64,000 nucleotides of DNA from positions 434,001 through 498,000 of the forward strand of contig NZ_JAOANW010000001.1 in assembly GCF_026162365.1 (NCBI RefSeq), read 5' to 3'. A model generated the notes under the pieces. The model was given only the letters and a program-made list of their open reading frames with translations. It had not been told where the DNA came from and did no database searches. A program made the translations under genes and the position numbers. The DNA comes from Nitratireductor luteus (GTDB lineage Bacteria; Pseudomonadota; Alphaproteobacteria; Rhizobiales; Rhizobiaceae). Shown piece after piece: positions 34,325 to 59,730 of this stretch (the first letter of the stretch is position 1; each line of letters starts with the position of its first letter).

Positions 34325-34352
34325 TTGACTTTTGTCAATGTGCGTGAATAAT
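34325..34352 (+). promoter_or_regulatory. Promoter and likely autoregulatory site of SorC-type gene
   Basis: TTGACT (34325-34330), 16 bases, AATAAT (34347-34352) reads into the regulator gene. Within it TTTGTCAAT (34331-34339) followed by T...TGA resembles one and a half arms of the palindrome at 41290-41314. An inner inverted repeat ATTGAC-TTTT-GTCAAT overlaps the -35. This points to binding by the SorC-type protein encoded immediately downstream. Confidence 0.5.
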
Positions 34353-34370
34353 GTCTAGCGGAGGAGATCG

Positions 34371-35354
34371 ATGGCTTATCGACCGGCTGACCAGATCGTG
34401 CACAAGGCGGCGTGGCTTTACTACACGCACGGTTTGCGCCAGGACGAAGTCGCGCAGCGGCTGAACATCTCGCGCGCCTCGGTGGCGCTCTACCTGCGCC
34501 GCGCGCGCGAGGCGGGCATCGTCAACATCTCCACCTCCACGCATCTGTTCCGGAACGACATGATGGCCCGGCAGGTCGAGGATCTGTTGGGGCTCGAAAC
34601 GGTGTGGCTTGCCGGCGAGGAAGGCCTGACGGCCAGCCCCGCCGACGAAATCCCCACCCTAGCGGCAAATGTGTTCGTGGAGATGGTGCGCAATGGCGAC
34701 CGCATCGGCGTTGCCTGGGGACGCACCGTCTACGCCATCGCCGACGCGATGAACTATGCCGACCGCGAAGGCGTGAGCGTGGTGGAGCTGTGCGGCAATC
34801 TGGGCTCGCCCTATTCCTACCGGCCCGACCAGTGCACGATGGAGATCGCCCGCAGGCTGAACGCGCGGGGGCTTAATTTCTATGCGCCTCTGGTACTGGG
34901 ATCGAAGGAGCTGGCGGCCGCGCTGCGCGAGGAGCCGGTGATCCGCGAGCAGCTCGATCTCGTCAGCCAGTGCGACCTGGCGCTGTTCACCGTTGGAACG
35001 CTGGACGCCGATAGCCATGTCATCAAATGCGGGGCGCTGAGCCTTGAGGAACTGGCGCAACTGAAGGCGTTGGGCGCCACGGGCGTGATCGCGGGGCAAA
35101 TCATCGATGCCGATGGCCAGCTCATCGACTGCGACTATAACAAGCGGATGATATCGGCGGATTTCGACGCCTTCCGGGCGATCCCGCGCCGCCTGATGGT
35201 GGTGCAGGAAGACGAGAAATTCGAGCCGCTGCGGGCGGCGATCAAGGGCGGGTTCTTCACCCATCTCATCATCGCCGCGCCGATGGCCAGGCGGCTGCTG
35301 AAGACGTTCGGCGAGGCCCCTCGCCCGAATGTGAAGGCCGGCGCGCCGGCCTGA
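34371..35354 (+). CDS. SorC/DeoR-type sugar-binding transcriptional regulator
   Basis: 327 residues. An N-terminal helix-turn-helix (HGLRQDEVAQRLNISRASVALYLRRAREAGIV, residues 23-55) is joined to a SorC sugar-phosphate-binding domain (NGDRIGVAWGRTVYAIADAM, LCGNLGSPYSY, VGTLDADSH). SorC effectors are usually phosphorylated sugars, here plausibly a 5-deoxypentose phosphate made by the locus. GGAGGAG precedes the ATG. It is followed after 96 bases by the aldolase/dehydrogenase gene. Confidence 0.92.
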   Translation: MAYRPADQIVHKAAWLYYTHGLRQDEVAQRLNISRASVALYLRRAREAGIVNISTSTHLFRNDMMARQVEDLLGLETVWLAGEEGLTASPADEIPTLAANVFVEMVRNGDRIGVAWGRTVYAIADAMNYADREGVSVVELCGNLGSPYSYRPDQCTMEIARRLNARGLNFYAPLVLGSKELAAALREEPVIREQLDLVSQCDLALFTVGTLDADSHVIKCGALSLEELAQLKALGATGVIAGQIIDADGQLIDCDYNKRMISADFDAFRAIPRRLMVVQEDEKFEPLRAAIKGGFFTHLIIAAPMARRLLKTFGEAPRPNVKAGAPA

Positions 35355-35450
35355 CCGACCTCCTTGCTGGAGCCTGTTTCGGAAAAGAGGGGGCCTTTTT
35401 CGGATCATGTTCCAGCCACAACGACCCATCGAGAAGCAAACAGGACAGTC

Positions 35451-37505
35451 ATGCAGAATCTCTGGAACGACAGCGAAGCCGACAAGCTCGTCAACGCCTA
35501 TGGCGAAAAAGGCGTCGACCGCGACCTTGCGCTGAGGGTTTACACGACCAGGCTACTGGGCGGCGAGCCGCGGCTGGTGCTGCACGGCGGCGGCAACACC
35601 TCGTTGAAATCCAAGGCGACCGACATCCTCGGTCGGGAATGGGACGTGCTGTGCGTCAAGGGCAGCGGCTGGGACATGGCGGTGATCGAGCCGCAGGGCC
35701 TGCCGGCGGTGAAGATGGAGGCGCTGCTGGCGGCGCGCGGGCTGAACAGCCTTTCCGACGAGGACATGGTCGCCATGCAGCGTTCCAACCTTATCGATCC
35801 GGGTTCGCCCAACCCGTCAATCGAGACGCTGCTGCACGCCTTCCTGCCGCATAAATTCGTCGACCACACCCATTCGACCGCCGTTCTGGCGCTGATCGAC
35901 CAGGAAAACAGCGAGGAAGTATGCCGCGCCGTCTATGGCGGCCGGCTGGGGTTCGTTCCCTATATCAAGCCTGGCTTCGACCTCGCCAAGGCGGCCGCGG
36001 AAATCTATGAGCGGAACCCCGCCGTCGAGGGCCTTATCCTCGACAAGCACGGCATCTTCACCTTCGCCGAGGGCGCGAAGGAAGCCTACGACCTGATGAT
36101 CGAATTCGTCACCATGGCCGAAGAGCATGTGGCGAAGAACGGGAGGAACCCGTTCAAGCCGGTCGTCCTGCCCGCAAAGCTGGCGACGCCGGAGGAGATC
36201 GGCCCCTATCTGCGCGGGGCCATCGCCATCGATGAGGGCGAAGGGCGCTATGGGCGCATGGTCAGCGACTTCCGCACGTCGGAGAAGATCCTCGACTATG
36301 TGAACGCGGACACGGCGGAGGAGCTCGCCCTGCGCGGGGTCTCGACCCCCGATCTTTCCATCCGCATCAAGACGGGGCCGATGGTGCTGCCGGCGCCGGA
36401 GGCCGGAAAACTCGACGAGTATCGCAAGGTGATCCGCGAAAGGGTGGCGGCATTCTCGGCGCGCTACAAGGAATATTTCGAGACCAACAACGCAAACGAC
36501 GATGTCGAGCGCACCATGCTCGACCCCATGCCCAGGCTTACGCTGGTGCGCGGTCTCGGGCTGTTCGGCCATGGCCGCAGCATGAAGGAAGCGAAGATTG
36601 CCGCCGATGTGGGCGAGATGCTGGTCGAGGCGGTCACCGGCGCCGAGGCCATCGGCTCGTTCCATCCGCTGGCGCTGTCGGACCTTTTCGAGCTGGAATA
36701 CTGGTCGCTGGAGCAGGCCAAGCTCGCCGCCAACAAGCCCAAGGCGCTTTCCGGACAGGTGCTGCTGGTGACGGGGGGTGCCGGCGCCATCGGCGCGGCG
36801 ACGGCAAAGCTGTTTGCCGCCCAGGGCGCCCACGTGGTGGTGGCCGATCTTAACGGCGACAAGGCGGCCGCCGCCGCGAAGGAGACCGGCAACGCCTCCA
36901 TCGGCGTCGCCTGCGACGTTACTGATCCCGCCTCCGTCCGCGCGGCGTTCGACCGGGCGGTGGCGGTGTTCGGCGGTGTCGACATCGTGGTCTCCAATGC
37001 CGGCGCGGCCTGGGAAGGGCGCATAGGGGAACTGAGCGACGAGACGTTACGCAAGAGCTTCGAGCTCAACTTCTTCGCCCATCAGAGCGTGGCGCAAAAT
37101 GCGGTGCGGCTGTTCCTGAAGCAGGGAACGGGCGGCGTGCTCTTGTTCAATGCGTCCAAGCAGGCGGTTAATCCCGGCAAGAATTTCGGCGCTTATGGAC
37201 TGCCCAAGGCGGCGACGCTGTTCCTGTCGCGCCAGTATGCCCTCGACTACGGCGCCCACGGCATTCGCTCCAGCGCCGTCAATGCCGACCGCATCCGCTC
37301 AGGCCTTCTCACCGACGAGATGATTGCCAGCCGCTCGGCAGCGCGCGGCGTCTCGGAGAAGGATTATATGGGCGGCAACCTGCTCGGGCTGGAGGTGCGG
37401 GCGGAAGACGTCGCGCAGGCCTTCCTGCACCAGGCGCTGGCCGAACGCACGACGGCTGACGTTACGACGGTGGATGGCGGGAATATCGCGGCGGCGCTGC
37501 GGTAG
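35451..37505 (+). CDS. Bifunctional class II aldolase / short-chain dehydrogenase
   Basis: 684 residues, fused as in rhizobial RhaD. Residues ~1-410 are a class II (zinc) aldolase: LHGGGNTSLKS, VKGSGWDMA, the metal site DHTHSTAVLALI and DKHGIFTF. Residues ~430-684 are a Rossmann SDR: LLVTGGAGAIGAATAKLFAAQG, SNAGAAWEGR, catalytic YGLPKA (YxxxK). RhaD homologues split rhamnulose-1-phosphate and oxidise lactaldehyde, but no rhamnose isomerase or kinase is here. Next to mtnK and mtnA it more likely cleaves 5-methylthio- or 5-deoxyribulose-1-phosphate to DHAP plus an aldehyde, which the SDR domain may convert. ATG 35451 has AGGA upstream. Confidence 0.9.
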   Translation: MQNLWNDSEADKLVNAYGEKGVDRDLALRVYTTRLLGGEPRLVLHGGGNTSLKSKATDILGREWDVLCVKGSGWDMAVIEPQGLPAVKMEALLAARGLNSLSDEDMVAMQRSNLIDPGSPNPSIETLLHAFLPHKFVDHTHSTAVLALIDQENSEEVCRAVYGGRLGFVPYIKPGFDLAKAAAEIYERNPAVEGLILDKHGIFTFAEGAKEAYDLMIEFVTMAEEHVAKNGRNPFKPVVLPAKLATPEEIGPYLRGAIAIDEGEGRYGRMVSDFRTSEKILDYVNADTAEELALRGVSTPDLSIRIKTGPMVLPAPEAGKLDEYRKVIRERVAAFSARYKEYFETNNANDDVERTMLDPMPRLTLVRGLGLFGHGRSMKEAKIAADVGEMLVEAVTGAEAIGSFHPLALSDLFELEYWSLEQAKLAANKPKALSGQVLLVTGGAGAIGAATAKLFAAQGAHVVVADLNGDKAAAAAKETGNASIGVACDVTDPASVRAAFDRAVAVFGGVDIVVSNAGAAWEGRIGELSDETLRKSFELNFFAHQSVAQNAVRLFLKQGTGGVLLFNASKQAVNPGKNFGAYGLPKAATLFLSRQYALDYGAHGIRSSAVNADRIRSGLLTDEMIASRSAARGVSEKDYMGGNLLGLEVRAEDVAQAFLHQALAERTTADVTTVDGGNIAAALR

Positions 37506-37526
37506 CTGCGTTCAAGCTTTCATGCA

Positions 37527-37552
37527 AAAGGGCGGCCCGGGAGCCGCCCTTT
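37527..37552. terminator. Bidirectional terminator, aldolase gene and ABC operon
   Basis: AAAGGGCGGC (37527-37536), six-base loop, GCCGCCCTTT (37543-37552): a perfect 10-bp stem with A/T ends between two convergent transcription units. Confidence 0.8.
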
Positions 37553-37572
37553 CTCGTTCAGTTTCCTTCGCC

Positions 37573-38628
37573 TCAATCGCGCGGCGGCAGCGGCATCCAG
37601 TCCGGCACGGCGACGTCGGCGTGGGCGAACTGGGGCAGTTTGGCGGCCAGTTCGTCCATGTTCTTGATGTCGCCCTCGTTGAGGACATCCTGCGTGATCA
37701 GGGTCGGTGGCACGATCACGCTCTGGCCCGGATCCTCGCCGGCTAGAAGCATGGCGAGCGCGCGCACTGAGACCTCGCCGACCACCGCGGGATTGGTAGC
37801 GGCGGTGGCGACCCAGGCGCTGCCCGGCTCGCGCATGGCGGAGATGTCGGCGGTCGACACGTCGGCGGAGTAGATCTTGATGCTGTCGGTCAGGCCGGCC
37901 TCGTCGACGGCGATCTTCACGCCCTTGGCGAACTCGTCATAGGGAGCGAACATGACCTGGATGTCCGGGTTGGCCGTGACGACCGAGCGTGCCTGGTTGG
38001 CGACGGAATTGGCGATCGGGTTGTCCAGCGTGCCGAACTGAGCCACTTCCTCGATGCCTGGATATTTCTCCTTGAACTGAAGCCAGGTCTCGTTGCGGCG
38101 GTCGAGCGGGGCGATGCCGGCGACATAGACATAGCCGGCCTTCCACTCCTCGCCATTGTCCTTGATGGCCTGCTCCAGCGCCAGGCGCGCGAGGTCGCGG
38201 TCGGACTGCTCGATCTGCGGAATGGCCTCGTTCTCGACATTGACGTCGAAGGCCACGACCTTGATGCCGGCATCCACCGCGCGCTGAGCGGCTTCCTTCA
38301 TCGATTCGGTCAGGCCGTGCTGGATGATGATGCCGTCGACGCCGAGCGCGATGGCCTGGTCGACCATGTCGGCCTGGAGGGCGGCGTCCTGGCGGCTGTC
38401 GAGGACGCGCAGGTTCACGCCCAGCGCCTTGGCCTGCGCCTCCACGCCCGACAGATAGGCCTGGAAGAAGTCACCGGTCGACAGATAGCGCACCAGCGCG
38501 ATCTCGACGTCGCCGGGATTGTCGAAGGGCGCGGGCATGTCCTGCGCGCTCGCCCCCACCGGCATCAGCATGCTGGCGCCAAGAAGGCCGGCCGCCATCT
38601 TGGCGACGGTTCTGCGGGTAAATCTCAT
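37573..38628 (-). CDS. Sugar ABC transporter substrate-binding protein (RhaS/RbsB type)
   Basis: Periplasmic type I binding protein, 351 residues. The N-terminus MRFTRRTVAKMAAGLLGASML has a twin-arginine and hydrophobic stretch, so Tat export is possible. The two lobes show VEIALVRYLSTGDFFQAYLSG, DGIIIQHGL, KVVAFDVNVEN and VMFAPYDEFAKGV. ATG 38628 has GGAGG five bases upstream; GTG 38640 also opens the frame. Last gene of the ATPase-permease-binding protein operon. The ligand is inferred to be the pentose handled by MtnK and MtnA. Confidence 0.9.
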   Translation of the reverse strand: MRFTRRTVAKMAAGLLGASMLMPVGASAQDMPAPFDNPGDVEIALVRYLSTGDFFQAYLSGVEAQAKALGVNLRVLDSRQDAALQADMVDQAIALGVDGIIIQHGLTESMKEAAQRAVDAGIKVVAFDVNVENEAIPQIEQSDRDLARLALEQAIKDNGEEWKAGYVYVAGIAPLDRRNETWLQFKEKYPGIEEVAQFGTLDNPIANSVANQARSVVTANPDIQVMFAPYDEFAKGVKIAVDEAGLTDSIKIYSADVSTADISAMREPGSAWVATAATNPAVVGEVSVRALAMLLAGEDPGQSVIVPPTLITQDVLNEGDIKNMDELAAKLPQFAHADVAVPDWMPLPPRD

Positions 38629-38663
38629 TCTTTCCTCCACTGGTTATTTCTCTTTTTCCGTCG

Positions 38664-39737
38664 CTACCTGGTGCGGCCAAGCAGCGCGAAAGTGAACACG
38701 AGCGCGATGACGAGCACCGCACCTTTGACGAAATCTTGAGTGTAGTAGGGCACGTTCATCATGGTCAGGCCCTGCAGGAGCACGCCGACGAACAGGGCGC
38801 CGATGGCGGTGCCGAACGCGTTGGGCTTGGCCGCACCCAGGACGGCGAAGCCGATGAGCGCGGCGGCGACGGCGTCGAGAAGCAGGTTGTTGCCCGATGC
38901 GATGTCGCCCCGGCCAAGACGCGCCGCCAGAAGAATGCCGCCGATGGAGGCGAAGACGCCGGAAATCACATAGGCCCAGATCTTGTAGGCCTTGACCGGA
39001 GCGCCGGCGAACTCCGCTGCGCGGGCGTTGGAGCCCACGGCATACATCATGCGGCCGAAGCGGGTGTATTCGAGGAAGAACCAGATGAGGACCGCGAGCA
39101 CGATGAGCACGACCACCGAGGCGGGCACGAGATTTTGGATGAAGAAGTCGAAGCGGTGCCGACCCAGCGCCAGAAACGCCGGGCTGAACGTTCCTTCGGC
39201 GGTCGAGCCGTCGGGCATGGTCATGCCGGCGGCGATGGAGCGGCCTTCGGTCGGGATGCGCTGGAGGCCGATCAGCAGGAACATCATGCCGAGCGTGGCG
39301 AGCAGGTCGGGCACGCGCATGTAGCAGATGATCAGCCCGTTGATGAGGCCGACAAGGGCGCCGATGGCCAAGCACGCGAGCACGGCGACCAGGGCATTCT
39401 GCTCCAGCACCACCATGACATAGGCGGCGGCCATCATCGAGCTGGTCGCGATGGAGCCGATGGACAGGTCGAAACCGCCGACGACCAGCGTCGCCGTGAC
39501 GCCGAGCGCGAGAATGCCGGTGATGGAAACCGATTGCAGGATGAAGACTGCCGCCTGCGGCGAAGTAAAGCCGCGCGTGGCCAGCGAAAAGAAGACGATG
39601 AGGCCGAAAAGCAACGTCAGGAAGCCATAGCGGATGGCGAGATGGCGCATCGGGAGGACGGCCCGCGCCGCCGGCTTCGGCCGATCCGCATTCGTCTTTT
39701 CCGCCAACTGACTGTCCATCCCGAGCTTCTCCGTCAT
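38664..39737 (-). CDS. Sugar ABC transporter permease (RbsC family)
   Basis: 357 residues, eight to ten membrane helices, with the family segments ITGILALGVTATLVVGGFDLSIGS, PDLLATLGMMFLLIGLQR, YAVGSNARAAEFAGAPVKAYK and LLLDAVAAALIGFAVLG. A single permease gene implies a homodimeric channel. Its start overlaps the ATPase stop by one base (TGATG). A tiny 35-base gap precedes the binding protein gene. Confidence 0.93.
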   Translation of the reverse strand: MTEKLGMDSQLAEKTNADRPKPAARAVLPMRHLAIRYGFLTLLFGLIVFFSLATRGFTSPQAAVFILQSVSITGILALGVTATLVVGGFDLSIGSIATSSMMAAAYVMVVLEQNALVAVLACLAIGALVGLINGLIICYMRVPDLLATLGMMFLLIGLQRIPTEGRSIAAGMTMPDGSTAEGTFSPAFLALGRHRFDFFIQNLVPASVVVLIVLAVLIWFFLEYTRFGRMMYAVGSNARAAEFAGAPVKAYKIWAYVISGVFASIGGILLAARLGRGDIASGNNLLLDAVAAALIGFAVLGAAKPNAFGTAIGALFVGVLLQGLTMMNVPYYTQDFVKGAVLVIALVFTFALLGRTR

Positions 39738-41254
39738 CAGGCTGCGCCGACCTGCCCCCCGGCGACATCCGCCAGGAGTCGTTCCATATCCACGTTTTCG
39801 TTGCGGTGCTCACCCACCAGTGTGTGCTCCGACATGACCAGTATCCGGTCCGCCGTCTCCAGCGCCTCGTCGAGCTCGGTCAGGAAAATGAGCGTCGCGC
39901 GGTCGCCGGCGCTGCCGCGGAGCTTGGCGGCTATGTCGTGGCGGGCGGAGATGTCGACGCCCTGAAAGGGCTCGTCGAGGACGAGAAGCCGTGAGGGCTG
40001 CGCCAGCCACCGCGCCACCGTGACCTTTTGCTGATTGCCGCCTGACAGCGTCGCCAGATCGTCGCGCTCGGAGCGGCAGACGATCTTCAGGTCGGCGATC
40101 TGGGCGCGCGCGGCGGCGCGCTCGGTGCCGCGCCTCGTGACGCCCAGCCGGGAAAGGCGCGGCAGGAAGGGCAGGCTCATGTTCTCATAGACGTTGAAGT
40201 CCGGCACGATGCCGGTCTTGGCGCGATCCTTGGCGACCAGGAAAACGCCGCGGGCGATGGCTGCCGCCGGGGTGGCAGGAGCGTAGGATGTGCCATCGAG
40301 ACGCATCGCGCCGGCCAGCGGCGCCTGAAGGCCGAATACGGTTTCGGAAAGCAGGGTCTTGCCGACGCCGACGAGCCCCGTGACGGCGACGATCTCGCCC
40401 GCGCCGACGGCCAGCGAAAACGGCGTGGCGCCGGGCTTCAATTGCAGGTCGCGCGCTTCGAAAACCGGTTTTGTCGCCGCGCGGGCGGCAATGCCGCTTT
40501 GGCCGAGGGACTGGCCCAGCATCGCGTCGACCGCGCCTTCGTAGTCCAGCGGCTTATCCTCGAACAGGCCGGAGATCGCGCCGTCGCGCAGGCTGACGAT
40601 GCGGTCGGCGACGCGGCGGATATCCGACATGCGGTGGGAGATGTAGAGAATGGCGACGCCGCGCTCGCGCAGGCGGTCGATCAGGGAGAAAAGCCGGTTG
40701 GCCTCGTGGCTGGAGAGCGACGAGGTTGGCTCGTCGAGCACCATCACCTGCGGCTTGTGCGCCATGGCGCGGGCAATGGCCACCATCTGGCGGTCGGCGA
40801 GCGGCAGGTCGGTGAGATCCGCCTTGAGGTCGATGGAAAGCCCCATGCGCTGGGCCACCTCGCGCGCCTCGCGGCGTGTGCGGCGCGGGTTGAAGAAAAT
40901 GCCCCTGCCCGGACCGTTGAACCGGTCGAGAACGAGATTGGATGCCACGTCCAGCGCGCCCACCACGCCGTCGTCGATGTTCTGATGGACGGTCACCACG
41001 CCGGCGCGCATCGCCTCGGCCGGGCTCGAAGGCGCAAAGGGCGTTTCGCCCAGCATCATGACGCCGCGGTCGGCGCGATAGATGCCGCTCATGATCTTGA
41101 CGAGTGTGGACTTGCCGGCGCCGTTGGCGCCCATGAGCACGGTCACCTCGCCGCCCCGCAGTTCGAGCGAGACGCCGCGCAGCACCTCGTTGGGGCCGAA
41201 CGACTTCCTCAAGCCCGCAATGCGGAATGTGGCGCGGAATGTGGCACTGCCCAT
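39737..41254 (-). CDS. Sugar ABC transporter ATP-binding protein (RbsA type)
   Basis: 505 residues with two nucleotide-binding domains. NBD1 has GANGAGKST near residue 40 and VMVLDEPTSSLSSHE; its signature is degenerate (LPLADRQMVAIARAM). NBD2 has GLVGVGKTLLSETV and a full LSGGNQQKVTVARWL signature with VLDEPFQGVDIS. The open frame runs to 42067, but ATG 41254 directly follows GGGAGGAAGTC and starts the family N-terminus FRIAGLRKSFGPNEVLRGVS. First gene of the operon divergent from mtnKA. Confidence 0.93.
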   Translation of the reverse strand: MGSATFRATFRIAGLRKSFGPNEVLRGVSLELRGGEVTVLMGANGAGKSTLVKIMSGIYRADRGVMMLGETPFAPSSPAEAMRAGVVTVHQNIDDGVVGALDVASNLVLDRFNGPGRGIFFNPRRTRREAREVAQRMGLSIDLKADLTDLPLADRQMVAIARAMAHKPQVMVLDEPTSSLSSHEANRLFSLIDRLRERGVAILYISHRMSDIRRVADRIVSLRDGAISGLFEDKPLDYEGAVDAMLGQSLGQSGIAARAATKPVFEARDLQLKPGATPFSLAVGAGEIVAVTGLVGVGKTLLSETVFGLQAPLAGAMRLDGTSYAPATPAAAIARGVFLVAKDRAKTGIVPDFNVYENMSLPFLPRLSRLGVTRRGTERAAARAQIADLKIVCRSERDDLATLSGGNQQKVTVARWLAQPSRLLVLDEPFQGVDISARHDIAAKLRGSAGDRATLIFLTELDEALETADRILVMSEHTLVGEHRNENVDMERLLADVAGGQVGAA

Positions 41255-41289
41255 GACTTCCTCCCATCGTGACGCTAGCAGGTAACAAG

Positions 41290-41314
41290 CATTTGTCAAT
41301 ATCGTTGACAAATG
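41290..41314. promoter_or_regulatory. Operator in divergent ABC / mtnKA promoter
   Basis: A perfect inverted repeat: CATTTGTCAA (41290-41299), five bases, TTGACAAATG (41305-41314). Each arm contains a consensus -35 (TTGACA) facing outward. TAGCCT lies 16 bases downstream on the plus side and TAGCGT 16 bases downstream on the minus side, making a near-symmetric double promoter; the minus -10 is very close to the ATPase ribosome site, so that start is uncertain. A protein on this site should control both operons. Confidence 0.7.
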
Positions 41315-41380
41315 ACAGAGCCTTGCTAGCCTAGCACCGATGCCTCCATCATGCGGGAGGCAGAACGACGGGAGGAACGC

Positions 41381-42670
41381 ATGCAGAAGACGGCCCCGGA
41401 AATGGAGTTCAAGGCGCTGAGCGTGGAGACGCTGCCGGCGCGGCTGGGCTCCGTGGACGCGGTGGCGAGCCTCGTGGGCGGGCCCGCCGAAAACTCGCCG
41501 GGAAGCTGGAAAGTGCGCGAGGTCGGCGACGGCAATCTCAACCTGGTCTTCATCGTCGAGGGCGCCAAGGGGGCGGCGGTGGTCAAGCAGGCGCTGCCCT
41601 ATGTCCGGCTTGTCGGCGACAGCTGGCCGCTGCCGCTGAAGCGCTCCTTCTTCGAATATCACGCGCTCATCCGCCAGGAAAAGCGCGATCCGGGGTCGGT
41701 GCCGGCGGTGCATTATTTCGACGAGGAGCAGGCGCTCATCGTCATGGAGTTCCTGTCGCCGCATGTGATCCTGCGCCGCGCACTGATCGATGGGCGCGAA
41801 CTGCCGAACATCGCGAGGGATCTCGGCCTTTTCACCGCGCGCACCCTGTTCCGCGGCTCGGACTTTTCCATGGAGCACAGGGAGCGCAAGGCGGACCTGG
41901 CGCTGTTCGCCGACAATACCGAATTGTGCGACATCACCGAGAACCTCGTCTTCACCGACCCCTATTTCGAGGCGCCTATGAACCGGCATACGCCGGGACT
42001 CGACGGGCTGGTCGGGGAATTGCGCGCCGACCGCGACCTGAAGGTTGCCGCGCAGACGATGAAGCATATATTTGCTTCACGTGCCGAGACGCTCGTGCAT
42101 GGCGATCTGCATTCGGGCTCCGTGATGGTGACCGACAGCGAAACCCGGATCATCGACCCGGAATTCGCCTTTTATGGCCCCATCGCCTTCGACGTGGGCA
42201 TGCTGCTGGCCAATTTCTGGATGTCCTATTTCTCGCAGCGCGGGCACGAGGCAGATGGATCGCGCACGTCGATGCGCGACTATCTTCTCGGCGTCGTGGA
42301 GGAGACGTGGAACGTGTTCCGCGCCGAATTCGCAAATCTCTGGCGCACGGAGCGCACGGGCATGCTGCATCATCGCTGCCTTTATGAAGACCGGGGCGAT
42401 GCGCTGGGTTCGGAGCAGGCGCTCAATCACGTGGTTCATGGCGTATGGACCGACATGCTGGGCTTTGCCGGTGTGGAAATACACCGGCGCATATTGGGCC
42501 TCGCCCACAATGCCGATTTCGAGACTATCGAGGACGAGGCGTTGCGGGCGCGGTGCGAGACGCCGGCGCTGAAATTCGGCCGGCACATCGCCGTGAACCG
42601 CAACCATATCCAATCCATGGACGAGCTCGCCAGGCTCGCCCGTCTGCTCGACGAGGGAGAAGTCTCGTGA
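41381..42670 (+). CDS. mtnK: S-methyl-5-thioribose kinase
   Basis: Phosphorylates 5-methylthioribose at C1; 429 residues, the usual size. The kinase core shows [14 protein letters not shown] (nucleotide loop), the catalytic loop [15 protein letters not shown] near residue 235, and the metal site [18 protein letters not shown]. The protein retains the full active site. ATG 41381 follows GGGAGGAACGC. It overlaps mtnA by GTGA, so kinase and isomerase are co-translated. Family members can also act on 5-deoxyribose. Confidence 0.95.
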
Positions 42671-43773
42671 AAGTCGCAGGCACACATTATCGCACCATCT
42701 GGGTCAATGAAGACGGCTGGTCGGTGGACCTGATCGACCAGCGCTGGCTGCCGCACGAATTGCGGGTGGAAAACGTGACCAGCGTGGAAGGCATCGCCGC
42801 CGCCATTCGCGACATGTGGGTGCGCGGGGCGCCGCTGATCGGCGTCACCGCCGCCTATGGCGTGGCGTTGCGCATGCGCGAGGACCCATCCGACGCCGCG
42901 CTCGACGCGGTGTGGGAAGAACTGCACGAAACGCGCCCCACCGCCATCAATCTGCGCTGGGCGCTCAACGAGATGCGCGGGCTCCTGCGGGGACTGCCCG
43001 AGAACGCCCGGGCTTCTGCGGCTTACAAGCGGGCGGCGGAGATCGCAAACGAGGACGTGGAGCTGAACCGCGGCATCGGCCGGCACGGGCTGGCGATCAT
43101 CAGGGAGATCGCCAGGACCAAGAAGGCCGGCGAGCCGGTGAACATCCTCACCCATTGCAATGCCGGCTGGCTGGCCACGGTCGACTACGGCACCGCGACA
43201 TCGCCGATCTATCTGGCGAGCGAGGAAGGCATTCCGGTTCATGTCTATGTCGACGAAACGAGACCCCGGAACCAGGGAGCGCATCTGACCGCTTGGGAAA
43301 TGGCCGGCCATGGCGTGCCGCACACGCTGATCGTCGACAATGCCGGCGGGCACCTGATGCAGCGCGGCATGGTCGACATGGTGATCGTGGGCACCGACCG
43401 CACCACATCCATCGGCGACGTGTGCAACAAGATCGGCACCTATCTCAAGGCGCTTGCCGCCAAGGACAATGGCGTGCCCTTTTACGTGGCCCTGCCCTCG
43501 CCCACCATCGACTGGACCGTGTGCGACGGGGTGAGGGAGATCCCGATCGAGGAGCGGTCGGGCGACGAGGTGTCGCTGGTCTGGGGCCGCGACGAGGACG
43601 GCAGAACGCGGCAGGTGCGCATCTCGCCCGAGGCGACGCCCGCCGGCAACCCCGCCTTCGACGTGACGCCCGCCCGGCTGATCTCCGGGCTGATCACGGA
43701 ACGCGGCGTGGCCGAGGCGTCGGAGAAGGGGCTGGCGAAGCTGTTCCCGGAGCGGGCTAGAAGCGCAGCTTGA
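42667..43773 (+). CDS. mtnA: S-methyl-5-thioribose-1-phosphate isomerase
   Basis: Aldose-ketose isomerase turning 5-methylthioribose-1-phosphate into the ribulose-1-phosphate; 368 residues. Catalytic cysteine in [19 protein letters not shown] near residue 161, catalytic aspartate in [14 protein letters not shown] near residue 241, and [13 protein letters not shown] near residue 55. Start is GTG 42667, overlapping the mtnK stop. The remaining Met-salvage genes (mtnB, C, D) are absent, which argues for aldol cleavage of the product by the enzyme at 35451. Confidence 0.95.
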
Positions 43774-44093: not shown

Positions 44094-45626
44094 CTACATC
44101 GTTGCGCCGACCTGCCAGGGTACGAACTCGTTGTCGCCGTAGCCGAGTTCTTCGGATTTGGAGCGTTTGCCGGAGGCTACCGCAAGCACTTCCTCGAAGA
44201 TCTGGCGGCCTTTCTCCTCCAAGGTGACGCCGTCGAGGATGTCGCCGCAATTGATGTCCATGTCCTCTTCCATCCGCTCGAACATGGCGGTGTTGGTGGC
44301 CAGCTTGATGGAGGGGGAAGGCTTGCAGCCATAGGCGGAGCCGCGGCCCGTGGTGAAGCACACGACGTTGGAGCCGCCGGCCACCTGCCCGGTCACCGAT
44401 ACGGGGTCGTAGCCGGGCGTATCCATGAAGACGAAACCCTTTTCGCGGATGAGCTCGGCATATTCATAGACCGCGTTGAGCGGCGTCGAGCCGCCCTTGG
44501 CGGCCGCGCCCAGCGACTTTTCGAGGATGGTCGTCAGCCCGCCAGCCTTGTTGCCCGGCGAGGGATTGTTGTTCATCTCGCCCATGTTGCGGGCGGTATA
44601 TTCCTCCCACCAGTGAATGCGCTCGATGAGCTTTTCACCGACGGCACGGTTGATGGCGCGAGCCGTCAGCAGGTGCTCGGCACCGTATATTTCCGGCGTT
44701 TCGGCCAGCACTGCGGTGCCGCCGTTGCGGACGAGAATATCCGCGGCAATGCCCAGCGCAGGATTGGCGGTGATGCCGGAATAGCCATCCGAGCCACCGC
44801 ATTGGAGAGCCAGCGTGATCTCGGAGGCCGGTACGGTCTCGCGCTTGTGGGCGCCGACGGCGCGCAGCATCTCGCGGATGCGCTCCAGCCCTGCCTCGAT
44901 AGTGCGCCTCGTGCCGCCGGTGTCCTGGATGGTCATGGTGCGGAAGGTTTCGCTTTCCCCCAGGCCGTAAAGCTCCTTCAGCCGGGCGATCTGGAAGACC
45001 TCGCAGCCGAGGCCGACCATCAGCACGCCGCCGAGATTGGGATGGGCGGCATAGCCCCATTGGGTGCGCTTGAGCATGTCGAAGCCTTCGCCCGAGCCGG
45101 CGATGCCGCAGCCCGTGCCGTGGGTGAAGGAGACGACGCCATCGATCTCCGGCCAGTCGTCGAGCATGCCGGATCTGTTGGCCGCCTCGGCGATGAAGCG
45201 CGCCACGGAGGCCGAGCAGTTCACGCTTGTCAGGATGCCGATATAGTTGCGGGTGCCCACCCGGCCATTGGCCCGGCGGTAGCCTTCGAAGGTCGCCTGC
45301 TCCTCGATGGGTAGCACGTTGACCGGCCGGGCTTCCTGCGAAAAGCGGTAGTCGCGCTCGAAGTCACCCATGGCCAGATTGTGCTCATGGACCCATTCGC
45401 CTGGCGCGATCGCCGTCTTGGCAAAGCCGATGATCTGGCCGAACTTACGCACGGGCGCGCCCTCGGCAATCGCCTCCAACGCCACCTTGTGGCCGAAGGG
45501 GATGCGGGCTTTGGCGGTGGTTCCGCCAGGAAGGACCGCACCTTCGTCGGCCTTGCGGGCGGCCACGGCGATATTGTCGGTTTCGGCAAGCCGCAGGAAA
45601 GGCGACTGCCCGTTTTCTTGGTTCAT
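44094..45626 (-). CDS. UxaA-family sugar-acid dehydratase (altronate/galactarate type)
   Basis: 510 residues, combining an N-terminal SAF domain (DNIAVAARKADEGAVLPGG, PFGHKVALEAIAEG) and the UxaA/GarD catalytic part: GTRNYIGILTSVNCSASVAR, FTHGTGCGIAGSGEG, CGGSDGYSGITANPALG and GRGSAYGCKPSPSIKLATN. Such Fe-dependent enzymes dehydrate D-altronate, D-galactarate or related acids to 2-keto-3-deoxy acids. It heads nothing else catabolic but stands 41 bases after a TRAP transporter on the same strand, so its substrate is most likely the imported acid. Confidence 0.92.
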   Translation of the reverse strand: MNQENGQSPFLRLAETDNIAVAARKADEGAVLPGGTTAKARIPFGHKVALEAIAEGAPVRKFGQIIGFAKTAIAPGEWVHEHNLAMGDFERDYRFSQEARPVNVLPIEEQATFEGYRRANGRVGTRNYIGILTSVNCSASVARFIAEAANRSGMLDDWPEIDGVVSFTHGTGCGIAGSGEGFDMLKRTQWGYAAHPNLGGVLMVGLGCEVFQIARLKELYGLGESETFRTMTIQDTGGTRRTIEAGLERIREMLRAVGAHKRETVPASEITLALQCGGSDGYSGITANPALGIAADILVRNGGTAVLAETPEIYGAEHLLTARAINRAVGEKLIERIHWWEEYTARNMGEMNNNPSPGNKAGGLTTILEKSLGAAAKGGSTPLNAVYEYAELIREKGFVFMDTPGYDPVSVTGQVAGGSNVVCFTTGRGSAYGCKPSPSIKLATNTAMFERMEEDMDINCGDILDGVTLEEKGRQIFEEVLAVASGKRSKSEELGYGDNEFVPWQVGATM

Positions 45627-45667
45627 TCAAGACCTCCGGCGGCCGCTCGCCGCCTTGTTCAGTTCGA

Positions 45668-46948
45668 TCAGCGGTAGATAAGTGTTGGCAGCCACATGGT
45701 GAGCGCCGGCACGAATGTCACGGCCATGAGCACCAGGAAAAGCGGCACCAGGAAAGGCAACGTCGCCTGCATGCAGCGTTCGAAGGGAACCTTCGACACG
45801 CGCGAGAGCACGTAGAGCACCATGCCCACGGGCGGCGTCAGCAGCCCCAGCATCAGGTTGAGAACCAGGATCACGCCGAAATGCACCGGATCGACGCCCA
45901 TCTGCACCGCGATCGGCAACAGCACGGGGACCAGGATGGTGATCGCTGCGACTGTCTCCATGAAGCAGCCGACGATGAGCAGGATCAAATTGATCAGCAG
46001 CAGGACGATGATCGGGTTTTCGGAGATGGTGAGGATCAGCGACGCGAATTGTTCCGGCACCCGGTTCGAGGTGAGGATCCAGGCGAAGATCGAAGCGGCC
46101 GCGACGATGAACAGCACCACGGCGGTCGTCTCGATCGTGTCGAAGGAAACGCGCAGGAACCGTTTCAAGGGAAGCGTGCGGTAGACGAAGAGGCCGAGGA
46201 ACAGCGCCCAGGCACAGGCGGCAATCGCTGCCTCGGTGGGCGTGAAGGCGCCCGAAAGGATGCCGCCGACAATGATGACCGGGGTCATCAGCGACAGGAA
46301 AGCCTGCTTAAACGTGCTCCACAGGTTGGAGATGCGGAAGGCCTGATCGCGCGGATAGCCGCGCACGCGGGCATACCAGGCCACCATCACCATCAGCGCC
46401 AGCGCCATCAGCAGCCCGGGGATCAGACCGGCGGCGAAAAGCTGGCCGATGGAGGCACCGGCGACCACGCCATAGATGACCATGGGAAGGGACGGCGGGA
46501 TGATGGGGCCGATGGTGGAGGAAGCTGCGGTTATGCCGACCGAGAAGCCGGGGTCGTAGTTTGCATCGCGCATGGCCTTGATCTCGATGGCGCCGAGACC
46601 GCCGGCGTCGGCGACGGCCGCGCCCGACATACCGGCGAAGATGACCGAGGCACCGATATTCACATGGCCGAGCCCTCCGCGCATCCACCCGACCAGCGCC
46701 TTAGCGAAGTTGAAGATGCGCTCGGTGATGCCGGCGGTGTTCATCAGGTTGCCGGCCAGGATGAAGAAGGGGACGGCCAGCAGCGGAAAGGAATCCACGC
46801 CATTGATCATTCGGTGGATGACGACGACGTCGGGGATGCGCCCATCCAGGAAGATGAAGACGGCCGACGATCCGGCGAGCGCGATGCCGACGGGAACGCC
46901 GAGGCAGATCATCGCGAAGAGTAGAACGAAAAGCAGCGTGAGCAGCAT
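45668..46948 (-). CDS. TRAP transporter large permease (DctM)
   Basis: 426 residues, about twelve helices. Family segments include GVPVGIALAGSSAVFIFLDG, AVPFFILAGNLMNTAG, GHVNIGASVIFAGMSGAAVADAGGLG, ITAASSTIGPIIPPSLPMVIYGV and NLMLGLLTPPVGMVLYVLSRV. Na+-driven import of a carboxylate or acid sugar. The open frame continues to 47155 but ATG 46948 begins the hydrophobic family N-terminus (MLLTLLFVLLFAMICLGVP). Confidence 0.94.
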   Translation of the reverse strand: MLLTLLFVLLFAMICLGVPVGIALAGSSAVFIFLDGRIPDVVVIHRMINGVDSFPLLAVPFFILAGNLMNTAGITERIFNFAKALVGWMRGGLGHVNIGASVIFAGMSGAAVADAGGLGAIEIKAMRDANYDPGFSVGITAASSTIGPIIPPSLPMVIYGVVAGASIGQLFAAGLIPGLLMALALMVMVAWYARVRGYPRDQAFRISNLWSTFKQAFLSLMTPVIIVGGILSGAFTPTEAAIAACAWALFLGLFVYRTLPLKRFLRVSFDTIETTAVVLFIVAAASIFAWILTSNRVPEQFASLILTISENPIIVLLLINLILLIVGCFMETVAAITILVPVLLPIAVQMGVDPVHFGVILVLNLMLGLLTPPVGMVLYVLSRVSKVPFERCMQATLPFLVPLFLVLMAVTFVPALTMWLPTLIYR

Positions 46949-46956
46949 TGAGCAGC

Positions 46957-47508
46957 CTAGATGTTCTTGCCTGTTACGGCGAAGGTTTCCGGATCGATGA
47001 GGCGGCTGCTGCCCGTCCGCAGGTGCCTTATCAGCACAAGCACGGCATAGGCGGTCATCGCGAAAAAGCAGGCGGCGACGATCCAGTAGACGACCGATTT
47101 CGGCACGTCGATGGACACCATCATCTGCTGTGTCTTCTGAGCCATTTGCGTGCACAGCCAGGCGGTGACCGCGTAAAACAGGAGCGCGATCAGATCGACG
47201 GCGATCTGAAGGGCGAAGCGGCCGCGGCGCGGCAGGTAGCGATAGAAGAGCTCCACCGCGATGTGGCTTTCCTTGCGCACCGCCATGATGGCGCCGATGA
47301 ACGTGACCCCGATCAGCAGGAAGCGCGCGATCTCCTCCGTCCAGCCCAGCGAATTGTTGAGCACGTAGCGGGTGAAGAACTGCAGGAAGACGACAAAGGC
47401 CAGGGCCCAGAAGACGCCCAATACCAGATAGTCGTCGATCTGGACGTCGGACAGGTCTTCTTCCTCGGGCGTTATCGCAAGGTCGCTATTGTCGGTTTGC
47501 TGTGACAT
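46957..47508 (-). CDS. TRAP transporter small permease (DctQ)
   Basis: 183 residues, four membrane helices; LGWTEEIARFLLIGVTFIGAIMAVRKESHIAVELFYR is the typical DctQ core. N-terminal residues are acidic and cytoplasmic (SDLAITPEEEDLSD). It stands nine bases before dctM and 75 bases after dctP. Confidence 0.93.
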   Translation of the reverse strand: MSQQTDNSDLAITPEEEDLSDVQIDDYLVLGVFWALAFVVFLQFFTRYVLNNSLGWTEEIARFLLIGVTFIGAIMAVRKESHIAVELFYRYLPRRGRFALQIAVDLIALLFYAVTAWLCTQMAQKTQQMMVSIDVPKSVVYWIVAACFFAMTAYAVLVLIRHLRTGSSRLIDPETFAVTGKNI

Positions 47509-47530
47509 GAACTCGTCCCGTACAGGCGTC

Positions 47531-47556
47531 GCGCCGCAGCCTGAAGGCCGCGGCGC
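47531..47556 (-). other. Intercistronic stem-loop between dctP and dctQ
   Basis: GCGCCGCAGCC (47531-47541), TGAA, GGCCGCGGCGC (47546-47556): an 11-bp stem with one mismatch. In a position between a binding-protein gene and its membrane partners, such a structure commonly stabilises the upstream mRNA so the binding protein is made in excess. Confidence 0.5.
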
Positions 47557-47583
47557 GCGCGTTCCGTCTTGTCGGCGTCAGGC

Positions 47584-48564
47584 CTACTCGATCGACTGAA
47601 GCCGGTCGTAGGTTTCCTGGTCCCAGGTCGCGTCCTCGCCGTTGTGAAGCTTCATCGTCGCCTCACGGAAAGGTGTGCGGTCCGGTTCATTGACCGTCAC
47701 GCCCTCGTCACGGAACCACTGGACCAGCTCTTTTTCCTTGTCGATGATCTGCTGTGTGGCGCAGGCGGCCGTTTCGTCCAGCACCTTGTCGAGCGTCTCG
47801 CGGTCCGCCTCGTCCATCGCGCCCCAGGCCGGCCCGCCGACGATGGTCAACAGCGCATCCGTGATGTGGCCGGTCAGCGTGATGTAGTCCTGAACCTCGT
47901 AGAACTTCTTGGCCTGGATGGTGGGCAGTGGGTTCTCCTGCGCATCCACCGTGCCCTGCTGCAGAGCCAGATAGACCTCGGCGAAGGCGATGGGCGTCGG
48001 ATTGGCGCCCACAGCCTCGGGAAACATCATGTAGAGCGGCGCGTTCGGCACGCGGATCTTCAGGCCGGCCATATCGCCCGGTTGCTGGATCTCCTTGTTG
48101 GAGGTCACATGACGCTCGCCATAATAGGTCAGCGAGGTGATGTGATTGCCGGTGGCCTCTTCATAACCTTCCGACAGTTCGGCGAAGAGGTCGGAATTGC
48201 GGTATCTGTCCCAGTGCTCGTAGTCACGGAACATGTACGGCGCACCGCCGATGGCGATTGGGCCGTAGGCACGGCCGGCAAAGAGCTGGCCGGTGTAGAT
48301 GATGTCGACGGTGCCCAGGCCGAGCCCTTCGTTGATGTCGACTTCCTTGCCCAGCGACGAGGCCGGGAAGACCTCGATCGAATAGCGGTCCTCGGTGGCC
48401 GCTTTCAGCTTGTCCGAGGCCTCTACGGCGCAAGTGTGATAGGGCTCGCTGGATTCATAGACGTGGGCCCACTTCAGCACCGTCTGGGCGGATGCGGGCA
48501 TGGCTAGCATGGACACGCCTGCCAGAGCGGCGGCGGCCATCGAATAGGTCACGGTTTTTCTCAA
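47584..48564 (-). CDS. TRAP transporter substrate-binding protein (DctP)
   Basis: 326 residues from TTG 48564, eight bases after GGGAGGAG; this gives a neat signal peptide (RKTVTYSMAAAALAGVSMLAMPASAQ), whereas the longer frame to 48600 adds a charged tail in front. Mature part: LKWAHVYESSEPYHTCAVEASDKL, GLKIRVPNAPLYMMFPEAVGANPTPIAFAEVYLALQQGTVDAQENP, with the family's carboxylate-binding Arg in KIRVPN. The ligand should be the sugar acid used by the dehydratase at 44094. Confidence 0.93.
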   Translation of the reverse strand: MRKTVTYSMAAAALAGVSMLAMPASAQTVLKWAHVYESSEPYHTCAVEASDKLKAATEDRYSIEVFPASSLGKEVDINEGLGLGTVDIIYTGQLFAGRAYGPIAIGGAPYMFRDYEHWDRYRNSDLFAELSEGYEEATGNHITSLTYYGERHVTSNKEIQQPGDMAGLKIRVPNAPLYMMFPEAVGANPTPIAFAEVYLALQQGTVDAQENPLPTIQAKKFYEVQDYITLTGHITDALLTIVGGPAWGAMDEADRETLDKVLDETAACATQQIIDKEKELVQWFRDEGVTVNEPDRTPFREATMKLHNGEDATWDQETYDRLQSIE

Positions 48565-48726
48565 CTTGAACTCCTCCCGTTTAAAAAACACTCGAAACAC
48601 GCCTCAGCGGACCGCCCGTTCTCCTCCGCGCTGGCCCAGGCGGATATGCCCTGCTTGTGCAAGCGAGCCGTTGCCCATAGGCGGTTGCTGCAAACCGTGA
48701 TATTCAAGCCATCGAAACTGTACTAA

Positions 48727-57092: not shown

Positions 57093-58439
57093 CTATGACG
57101 GAATGCCCACTCGGCCGTCGCGCAGCTTTACGAAGTAATCGTCACGGCCAATCTGCCCGCCCTTCAGGGCCAGTTCCAGTACGCCTCCTTGAGAACGGTG
57201 CGCGTCACATACCGGCGAGCCGGGGCTTTCGGGAATGGGATGGCGCAACGTAAGCGCAAAGACATCGAGTGCGCTCAATGCATGGCTCGACGTGTCCCCA
57301 CCGGCGATGACGGCGCGAGGCAGGTCGTGGCGTTCGATCAAAGCGTTCAGCAGGTGCCCGAGCGCGCGGCCGGCGGCATCACCCGATTCCGCAACGTGCC
57401 CCCTTACGCTTTGCGCGCCGCGTGCCGTGTAAAGGATCGGACTTCTTCCCGCATCGAGTGCGGCGGAGGCTTGCGCCAACGCTTCCACACAAGCCGCCTC
57501 CAACCCTTGACCCGAAACGAGCGCCTGAAAATCAACCGGGATTCCGTCGAAACCGTTGGCGCAGGCGACGTCGATCTGGCGTGCGGTGGTCGGCGAGCAA
57601 CTGCCGGAGACAACGGCGATGCGCTCCAGCTTCTGCAGAGGCTTTGGTGCGTCTGCCGGGCGGGCAACGCCCGCGTCCTTCCACACCTCCAGCAGTGCGT
57701 ATTCGACCCCTGAAGAGCCGATAACGAAGGGGCCCAACCGATCAAGCTCCTTGTCGAGGAGCAGCCCTGCCTGTCGTTGTGAGAAGGCGTCGTACACATC
57801 GATGAGAATGCAGCGAACGGCTTGCCGGTCGAAATCTGCGAGGGCCTCGGAAAGAGACGGTTCGTTGAGGATCTCCGGATCGAGGCAGGCTGTGGCGAAC
57901 CCGGTCTGGTGCCCCAGATGCACGAGCAGGTCCGCTTCCTGCATCGGCGTTGCGGGATGGGCGCTCATCACCGGATGCCGGTCGATGCGGTAGACCCGGT
58001 CGCGATAGGCGGCGAAAAGCTGGCTGAAATAGGTAAAGCGGCGCAGTTGCGGCGCGCCGACCACCAGCGCCGCCGTCTTCTGGTCGAAGCACCGCAGGCC
58101 GATCTCCAGGGCACGGCCGATGGAGCCCTGGCGGGGGGAACTGTCGAAGGTGGAGCAGACCTTATAGTGACAATGGTGCGCATTCAGCCCTTTGAGCCAG
58201 CTGAAGATGGCAGGGAGATTGCCATCCATCCAGTCCGGCGTCTGGCTGCGGCTGACGCCGGCAATGCCAACCGCGCGGCAATCGGCAAATCTGGCGGCCC
58301 GCGCGTCGTCGGGAATACCGGTGAACAGCACGGTGGGAACGCCGCCCGACGAGAGGGCCTCCATGACATCGGTGGAGCCGGTAAAATCATCCCCGTAGTA
58401 GGACAGCAGAAGCCCGTCGCTCATCGAATCGCCCGTCAT
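57093..58439 (-). CDS. oiaK: DUF1537-family four-carbon acid sugar kinase, OiaK-like
   Basis: 448 residues from ATG 58439, which overlaps the RLP stop (ATGA). N-terminal LLLSYYGDDFTGSTDVMEAL is the DUF1537 kinase start; the C-terminal nucleotide-binding part shows VVSGSCSPTTARQI and AVIAGGDTSSHALSALDV. In D-apiose catabolism the related OiaK phosphorylates 3-oxo-isoapionate at C4. Coupling to a RuBisCO-like protein and an ApnO-like gene makes that role likely, but DUF1537 kinases also act on threonate, erythronate and others. Confidence 0.85.
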   Translation of the reverse strand: MTGDSMSDGLLLSYYGDDFTGSTDVMEALSSGGVPTVLFTGIPDDARAARFADCRAVGIAGVSRSQTPDWMDGNLPAIFSWLKGLNAHHCHYKVCSTFDSSPRQGSIGRALEIGLRCFDQKTAALVVGAPQLRRFTYFSQLFAAYRDRVYRIDRHPVMSAHPATPMQEADLLVHLGHQTGFATACLDPEILNEPSLSEALADFDRQAVRCILIDVYDAFSQRQAGLLLDKELDRLGPFVIGSSGVEYALLEVWKDAGVARPADAPKPLQKLERIAVVSGSCSPTTARQIDVACANGFDGIPVDFQALVSGQGLEAACVEALAQASAALDAGRSPILYTARGAQSVRGHVAESGDAAGRALGHLLNALIERHDLPRAVIAGGDTSSHALSALDVFALTLRHPIPESPGSPVCDAHRSQGGVLELALKGGQIGRDDYFVKLRDGRVGIPS

Positions 58440-59689: not shown

Positions 59690-59730
59690 AGCTCTCTCCT
59701 CTTGATGCGGTGCGCCCATTTCTTATCAAC

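Follow-up and report, generated by a model that had tools for sequence, protein, structure and literature searches.

The locus examined here raises a question of substrate: which sugar does it take up, and what becomes of that sugar? The window, a stretch of 64,000 nucleotides of Nitratireductor luteus, a relative of the rhizobia (contig NZ_JAOANW010000001.1, positions 434,001 to 498,000), carries seven genes, all intact, that span 34371-43773 of the window. A regulator gene and a gene for a class II aldolase fused to a short-chain dehydrogenase (SDR) lie on the plus strand; the genes for the binding protein, permease and ATPase of an ATP-binding cassette (ABC) importer face them on the minus strand; and mtnK and mtnA, again on the plus strand, diverge from the importer. 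We consider it probable that the locus serves the substrate-induced scavenging of 5-methylthioribose (MTR), probably also of 5-deoxyribose, with the imported sugar being split for carbon; both sugars arise as waste from methionine chemistry. The computed basis of this proposal consists of the gene families, the intact catalytic residues, a conserved linkage, a conserved palindrome and the nearest ligand-titled relative of the binding protein. Published papers are cited by PMC number, in each case for the excerpts that were available.

Genes of the locus

A sequence-only reading of the window had placed a block of these seven genes at about these coordinates, and all of them proved to be present and intact there, with protein family models and domains in agreement. 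The 5-methylthioribose kinase gene mtnK (41351-42670, plus strand) scores 485 bits on TIGR01767 (cut-off 275), and the 5-methylthioribose-1-phosphate isomerase gene mtnA (42664-43773, plus strand), whose start overlaps the end of mtnK, scores 423 bits on TIGR00512 (cut-off 279) and is the sole IF-2B family gene of the genome. The fusion gene (35451-37505, plus strand) is composed of an Aldolase_II and an adh_short domain. It reaches 1098 bits on NF006192 (cut-off 639), and 488 bits on the RhaD-fusion model TIGR02632, which is below the cut-off of 567.75. The importer consists of the binding protein (37573-38628), a permease (38664-39737; PF02653, 145 bits) and an ATPase with two ABC domains (39737-41254; PF00005 in two stretches, start codon read), all on the minus strand. 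The SorC/DeoR-type regulator (34371-35354, plus strand) contains the Sugar-bind domain PF04198 (168 bits), while its best NCBIfam DeoR model, NF053881, gives 162 bits, below the cut-off of 420; it is the probable repressor of the locus.

The putative active-site residues of the fusion, MtnK and MtnA are unchanged across homologues, as judged on the best aligned stretch per locus for 58-61 fusions of at least 58% identity plus 4 below that value, 75 MtnK and 73-74 MtnA sequences. We take these residues to be the aldolase zinc site with its glutamate, the Asn-Ser-Tyr-Lys set of the SDR domain, and the active sites of MtnK and MtnA.

The importer and its cargo

The closest solved structure to the binding protein is 4ry8, with E 1e-66 by sequence. 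A fold search with a model built from 40 sequences (mean predicted local distance difference test, pLDDT, 87.9) again placed 4ry8 at the top (E 2.5e-31, 38% identity); the fold from the single sequence was poor (pLDDT 43.9) and was not used. The title of 4ry8 names it as the MTR transporter solute binding protein TLET_1677 from Thermotoga lettingae TMO. The transporter had earlier been called RhaS-like, a label that has to be given up: the RhaS model TIGR02637 yields only 40 bits against a cut-off of 342, and 4ry8 makes the protein MTR-type. A homologue on a Priestia megaterium plasmid (35% identity by tblastn, 33% in alignment), which in the PDB matches 5ulb and 4ry8 best, adjoins mtnK, mtnA and mtnW together with its ATPase and permease; this methionine-salvage cluster also holds genes annotated as phosphatase, dehydratase, cupin and aminotransferase. 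MTR is the best-supported cargo of the importer, and 5-deoxyribose is a possible one. An uncharacterised MTR importer, mtrACB, first noticed in Bacillus cereus, was proposed in 2011, and the same paper has Escherichia coli excreting MTR (PMC3228920).

Two plasmid importers are recorded here as a separate observation. In Rhizobium beringeri (L092) and R. etli (L093), each binding-protein homologue (about 55% identity) is accompanied by an ATPase and a permease of its own; no mtn genes are nearby, and the neighbours are genes of the SfnB family, for a flavin oxidoreductase and for an acyl-CoA dehydrogenase. Perhaps these importers take up another organosulfur sugar.

The step after MtnA

The genome contains four Aldolase_II genes, namely the window fusion, a RhaD, an AraD-type and an adducin-type gene. 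By the model TIGR03328 none of the four qualifies as an MtnB (highest score observed 73, cut-off 137), nor is a small FucA-type aldolase of the Ald2/DrdA kind among them; the two stand-alone genes are 31% and 24% identical to the FucA-type aldolase of a related locus, L017. Since the other Aldolase_II genes are of the RhaD, AraD and adducin types, the fusion is the best candidate for the step after MtnA. A search of the genome with PF03079 returned no match for mtnD, and complete methionine salvage (the Yang cycle) was rejected because the models find neither mtnD nor MtnB in the genome. The nucleosidase for 5'-methylthioadenosine and S-adenosylhomocysteine (MTA/SAH) is present (TIGR01705, 368 bits, cut-off 152), while no MTA phosphorylase scores over its cut-off in the genome.

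On contig C35 a RhaI-like gene (425 bits, below the model cut-off of 531) lies alongside a true RhaD fusion (1094 bits, TIGR02632 cut-off 568). The existence of a separate rha locus with its own RhaD fusion suggests that the window fusion does something else. The absences listed in the sequence-only reading (mtnB, mtnC, mtnD, MTA phosphorylase, rhamnose isomerase and rhamnulokinase) hold for the block, but have to be read beside the genome, which has the RhaI-like gene and the true RhaD on C35. That reading had also stated that rha genes co-regulated elsewhere would speak against its pathway; a rha locus does exist, but with a RhaD fusion of its own, and the strict form of the operator described below is found only at the mtn locus.

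The partners of the fusion were surveyed in 121 genomes of the order, with the model cut-offs for MtnK and for the fusion (NF006192). MtnK was found in 25 genomes, the fusion in 18 and both in 10, compared with 3.7 expected (one-sided Fisher test, p 3.9e-4, with no correction for kinship); six of these ten genomes have the two genes within 10 kb of each other. MtnA was tested in 12 of the 18 fusion genomes and scored over the cut-off in 11, the twelfth genome having a contig-end fragment beside the fusion, and among the remaining six mtnA was seen in four. In a tree of 51 sequences, 8 RhaD-like ones stand apart on a long branch, and in the rest the MtnA-linked and other contexts are intermixed (the tree label "mtnKA-locus" is loose for L140, which is about 26 kb from mtnK).

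Conservation among relatives

One scan of genome contigs gave 428 binding-protein relatives. The best 80 of the 428 were kept as loci, so conservation is measured here on close orthologues (at least 81% identity); judged by the names in their titles, all 80 are presumably alphaproteobacterial. The importer is flanked by mtnK and mtnA in 74 of the 80 loci, the other six (L018, L022, L026, L053, L074 and L080) being cut by contig ends. This arrangement exceeds chance. The fusion, at more than 60% identity, is found in 61 loci and a relative of about 50% in four. A FucA-type aldolase occurs in two loci, and L041 has a FucA-type gene besides the fusion. In L017 the FucA-type aldolase is located right behind mtnA, and the only fusion of that genome is a RhaD-like one. 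This enzyme has matches to fuculose aldolase at E 1e-54 and to DrdA 6BTD at E 4e-40, and the fucA models score it below their cut-offs. Two Sinorhizobium meliloti pSymB stretches (L091, L097) have the regulator, importer, mtnK and mtnA, adjoining thiamine synthesis genes.

In two Marinosulfonomonas metagenome-assembled genomes, epimerase-type and LsrF thiolase-family genes come after the binding protein (L075:11130-13166 and L053:3987-5572). L075 has an RbsD/FucU mutarotase-type gene too, and its LsrF-family gene scores 507 bits (cut-off 297).

Regulation

The divergent importer/mtnK promoter region holds an operator-like palindrome, CATTTGTCAA-TATCG-TTGACAAATG, at 41290-41314. We compared 76 such regions, from the window and 75 of the 80 loci (L018, L022, L053, L074 and L080 were left out as truncated), and TGTCAA-N(5-6)-TTGACA is present in 74 of them, L019 and L024 being without the motif. 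The next outward pair of the arms is T-A in 31 and A-T in 29, hence symmetric in 60 of the 74, and the subsequent outward pairs are symmetric in 67, 74, 74, 52 and 26. In 5000 shuffles of this region of the window, a 10-bp arm was attained only twice, and the genome has the strict form of the palindrome at a single place. An operator-like inverted repeat, TTGACTTTTGTCAA (34325-34338), precedes the regulator gene. Over 68 regulator-upstream regions (13 loci are left out; L083 had no bases), the full repeat TTGAC-N(2-5)-GTCAA is found in only 22, and the core GACTTTTGTC in 55. The region ahead of the regulator gene and the importer/mtnK promoter contain related half-sites, and the regulator would bind the palindrome as well as the upstream repeat. 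In E. coli, the DeoR-family MtnR represses an mtnK-mtnA-ald2-transporter operon (PMC12632272).

Proposed pathway and the evidence against it

In the pathway that we propose, the ABC importer would take up MTR (or 5-deoxyribose), MtnK would phosphorylate C1 of the sugar, and MtnA would isomerise the product to 5-methylthioribulose-1-phosphate (or 5-deoxyribulose-1-phosphate). The aldolase domain of the fusion would cleave this to dihydroxyacetone phosphate (DHAP) and 2-(methylthio)acetaldehyde (or acetaldehyde), and the SDR domain of the same polypeptide would consume the aldehyde, most likely oxidising it with nicotinamide adenine dinucleotide (NAD), which would give (methylthio)acetate or acetate. 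Oxidation is favoured from the analogy to RhaEW, which yields DHAP and lactate and requires NAD (PMC3870299). The regulator would repress the divergent promoters at the palindrome until the substrate or a phosphorylated intermediate is present, and internal MTR from the MTA/SAH nucleosidase could join the pathway at MtnK. The same course of import, phosphorylation, isomerisation, cleavage and aldehyde turnover had been outlined in the sequence-only reading; the families, residues, linkage and MTR-titled relative support it, while the activity of the fusion on MTR-derived substrates, like the ligand, the aldolase substrate, the SDR direction and the pairing of regulator and palindrome, is something that we infer.

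Several observations weigh against the pathway. In Rhodopseudomonas palustris the same aldehyde undergoes reduction, not oxidation (PMC5893883), so reduction by the SDR domain is possible as well. Around the binding-protein homologues in four plasmid regions (L092-L095), which are 39-55% identical, neither mtnK nor mtnA lies within 9 kb; the wider binding-protein family, therefore, binds other things. No fusion is located within 9 kb in either S. meliloti pSymB stretch, and 19 of the 80 loci are without the fusion in the fetched stretch. When the genomes of 11 of these 19 loci were searched (L016 and L053 among them are truncated loci), 5 carried the fusion elsewhere at 67-86% identity, 3 had a relative of about 50%, and 3 had only a RhaD-like gene of 34-35%. 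A search of six of these genomes with the L017 aldolase gave a FucA-type gene in 4, namely the three that lack a fusion, one of which carries it right behind mtnA, and one of the three that have the relative of about 50%.

In the order survey, MtnK is missing from 8 of the 18 fusion genomes. MtnA, moreover, is common, being over the cut-off in 8 of 14 control genomes, so its presence in fusion genomes is weak evidence. Stronger evidence for the link is provided by gene order. In three genomes without MtnK the order is mtnP-mtnA-(426 amino acids)-fusion, with MtnP at 530-536 bits (cut-off 437), and in L138 and L141 mtnK, mtnA, the fusion and a SorC gene follow each other on one strand, the fusion directly after mtnA. 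On the other hand, in L129-L132 no mtn gene was seen near the fusion, and in L135-L137 the match to the fusion model adjoins a SorC gene and a kinase gene of FGGY type (xylulokinase model, 288-294 bits, below the cut-off of 380). As the model NF006192 also matches these FGGY-kinase-linked fusions, its family name does not fix the substrate.

The protein of 426 amino acids between mtnA and the fusion (L127:5812-7092, with equally long open reading frames in L128 and L133) is possibly a transporter or an unknown pathway enzyme; the one such protein that was scanned gave no NCBIfam match at E 1e-20.

Alternative explanations

The main substrate could be 5-deoxyribose instead of MTR, the locus then being a drd-type disposal or scavenging route to DHAP and acetaldehyde or acetate. 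We regard this as unlikely, although it deserves to be taken seriously. DrdK has similar specificity constants for 5-deoxyribose and MTR (PMC6079011), so membership of the MtnK family does not decide the substrate; 5-deoxyribose induces the E. coli mtnK-mtnA-ald2 operon (PMC12632272); and the replacement aldolase of L017 matches DrdA. That aldolase is nevertheless closer to fuculose aldolase, the solved structure nearest to the binding protein bears the title of an MTR binder, and the Priestia homologue sits among MTR salvage genes.

It is improbable that the regulator and the fusion form an independent unit for some other sugar-1-phosphate, neighbouring the mtnK-mtnA-importer genes by happenstance. 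The fusion is on its own transcription unit, the loci without it and the FGGY-kinase-linked relatives described above would fit such a unit, and yet it lies beside the importer in 61 of the 80 loci, follows mtnA on the same strand in L138 and L141, is linked to mtnA where mtnP replaces mtnK, and shares related half-sites between the regulator upstream region and the importer/mtnK promoter.

A locus for rhamnose or another 6-deoxyhexose is very hard to maintain and was rejected on the model scores, the C35 rha locus and the tree: the fusion does have the RhaD/RhaEW domain layout, but it falls below the RhaD cut-off and the binding protein far below the RhaS one, no rha isomerase or kinase is found among the seven genes of the block, the RhaI-like gene and the true RhaD are together on C35, and the RhaD sequences branch away from the fusion. 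Scarcely credible, finally, is an Lsr-like locus for uptake and processing of autoinducer-2, which was rejected since, for all the resemblance of the regulator to LsrR (86 bits, cut-off 486) and the LsrF-family gene beside the importer in L075, LsrB reaches only 30 bits (cut-off 384), LsrB structures match at E 5e-7 versus 1e-66 for 4ry8, and the kinase of the locus is MtnK.

A second branch in relatives

The window's own locus has the aldolase-SDR branch only, while a split transketolase and a RuBisCO-like protein were found in 27 of the 80 loci, within the mtnK-mtnA or the importer operon. For example, the operon of L082 (1802-4859) runs on into genes for the N and C parts of the transketolase and a RuBisCO-like gene, and the same extension is seen in L138, L141 and L142. 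The split transketolase scores over the Pfam cut-offs. The RuBisCO-like protein is recognised by Pfam (87 bits versus 30), falls under every specific NCBIfam cut-off, and has 3qfw as its best PDB match (E 2e-70).

In R. palustris, RLP1 makes 1-(methylthio)xylulose-5-phosphate from the MtnA product (PMC5893883). We tentatively suggest, as an idea with somewhat less than even prospects, that the extension is a second branch acting on the MtnA product. The RuBisCO-like protein would give 1-(methylthio)xylulose-5-phosphate, or 1-deoxyxylulose-5-phosphate from 5-deoxyribulose-1-phosphate, and the split transketolase would then release glyceraldehyde-3-phosphate and a (methylthio)acetyl or acetyl unit, replacing the known cupin step. 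If this is true, bacteria with both branches choose between two ways to split one imported sugar, and the extension may indicate a new use of a RuBisCO-like protein. Among open-licence papers, searched by title, none was found that describes a RuBisCO-like/transketolase extension with methylthioribulose.

The two RuBisCO-like genes of the N. luteus genome share 27% and 31% identity with the type found beside transketolase genes, and both score best on OiaX, below the cut-off. The one in the window (58436-59719) was rejected as a pathway partner (OiaX 428 bits, cut-off 700; 27% identity to the transketolase-linked type). It adjoins a gene with PF07005/PF17042 kinase domains; the RuBisCO-like and kinase-type genes together occupy 57093-59719 on the minus strand, with ABC transporter open reading frames to the right, and are likely to belong to an acid-sugar pathway.

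Comparison with known systems

The DHAP shunt and 5-deoxyribose disposal (MtnK-MtnA-Ald2; DrdK-DrdI-DrdA) have the same order of kinase, isomerase and class II aldolase as the locus, and the E. coli shunt operon likewise comes with a DeoR-family repressor and a putative transporter (PMC12632272). Ald2 and DrdA are small FucA-type enzymes, whereas the window locus has a RhaE-type aldolase domain in an SDR fusion; it would work like the DHAP shunt with the fusion in place of Ald2/DrdA. Its importer, unlike the DHAP shunt, is an MTR-type ABC system. When compared with the RhaEW/RhaD aldolase-lactaldehyde dehydrogenase fusions, the window fusion has the same two-domain architecture, but it belongs to NF006192 and not TIGR02632, stands apart in the tree and is linked to mtn rather than rha genes.

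As in the window, the mtrACB systems of B. cereus and, going by their description, of enterobacteria have a binding protein, ATPase and permease by mtn genes (PMC3228920), and Tlet_1677 (4RY8) is the nearest solved relative. The mtrACB importer feeds full methionine salvage (PMC3228920; the Priestia cluster), whereas no mtnD was found in the N. luteus genome and the MtnA product would go to the aldolase. In the MTA-isoprenoid and DHAP-methanethiol shunts of R. palustris the MtnA product meets either an aldolase, which cleaves it, or a RuBisCO-like protein, which isomerises it; these shunts start at MTA via MtnP, and use Ald2 and a cupin after the RuBisCO-like protein (PMC5893883). Relatives of the window locus differ in having split transketolase genes beside the RuBisCO-like gene.

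The sequence-only reading knew of no description of this combination. That appears to be right for the aldolase-SDR version, but transporter-linked clusters (PMC6079011, PMC12632272) and an MTR importer (PMC3228920) have been published. Beaudoin et al. (2018) described kinase-isomerase-aldolase clusters, four of them with sugar transporters, and suggested salvage of exogenous 5-deoxyribose (PMC6079011). Among open-licence papers, searched by titles and the starts of abstracts, none was found on an MTR importer or mtnK combined with an aldolase-SDR fusion in rhizobia, and no paper in this literature mentions 4RY8. Transporter-linked mtnK/mtnA/aldolase clusters and MTR importers are therefore already known, and the fused aldolase-SDR version with an MTR-type ABC importer is new; the locus seems to vary a route already described and does not look like a system of a new kind. 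Through it, importers annotated merely as sugar ABC transporters, among them the one on S. meliloti pSymB, acquire a role that can be tested, as do fused aldolase-dehydrogenases that are easily confused with rhamnose enzymes. The locus also suggests that methionine-derived sugars shed by others merit a dedicated importer in many soil, plant-associated and marine alphaproteobacteria.

Neighbouring genes

Downstream of mtnA, the minus-strand stretch 44094-48600 contains a galactarate-dehydratase-like gene (415 bits, below the cut-off of 731) and a DctP-type binding protein gene of a tripartite ATP-independent periplasmic (TRAP) transporter (185 bits, cut-off 175). This stretch is a sugar-acid locus separate from the mtn locus.

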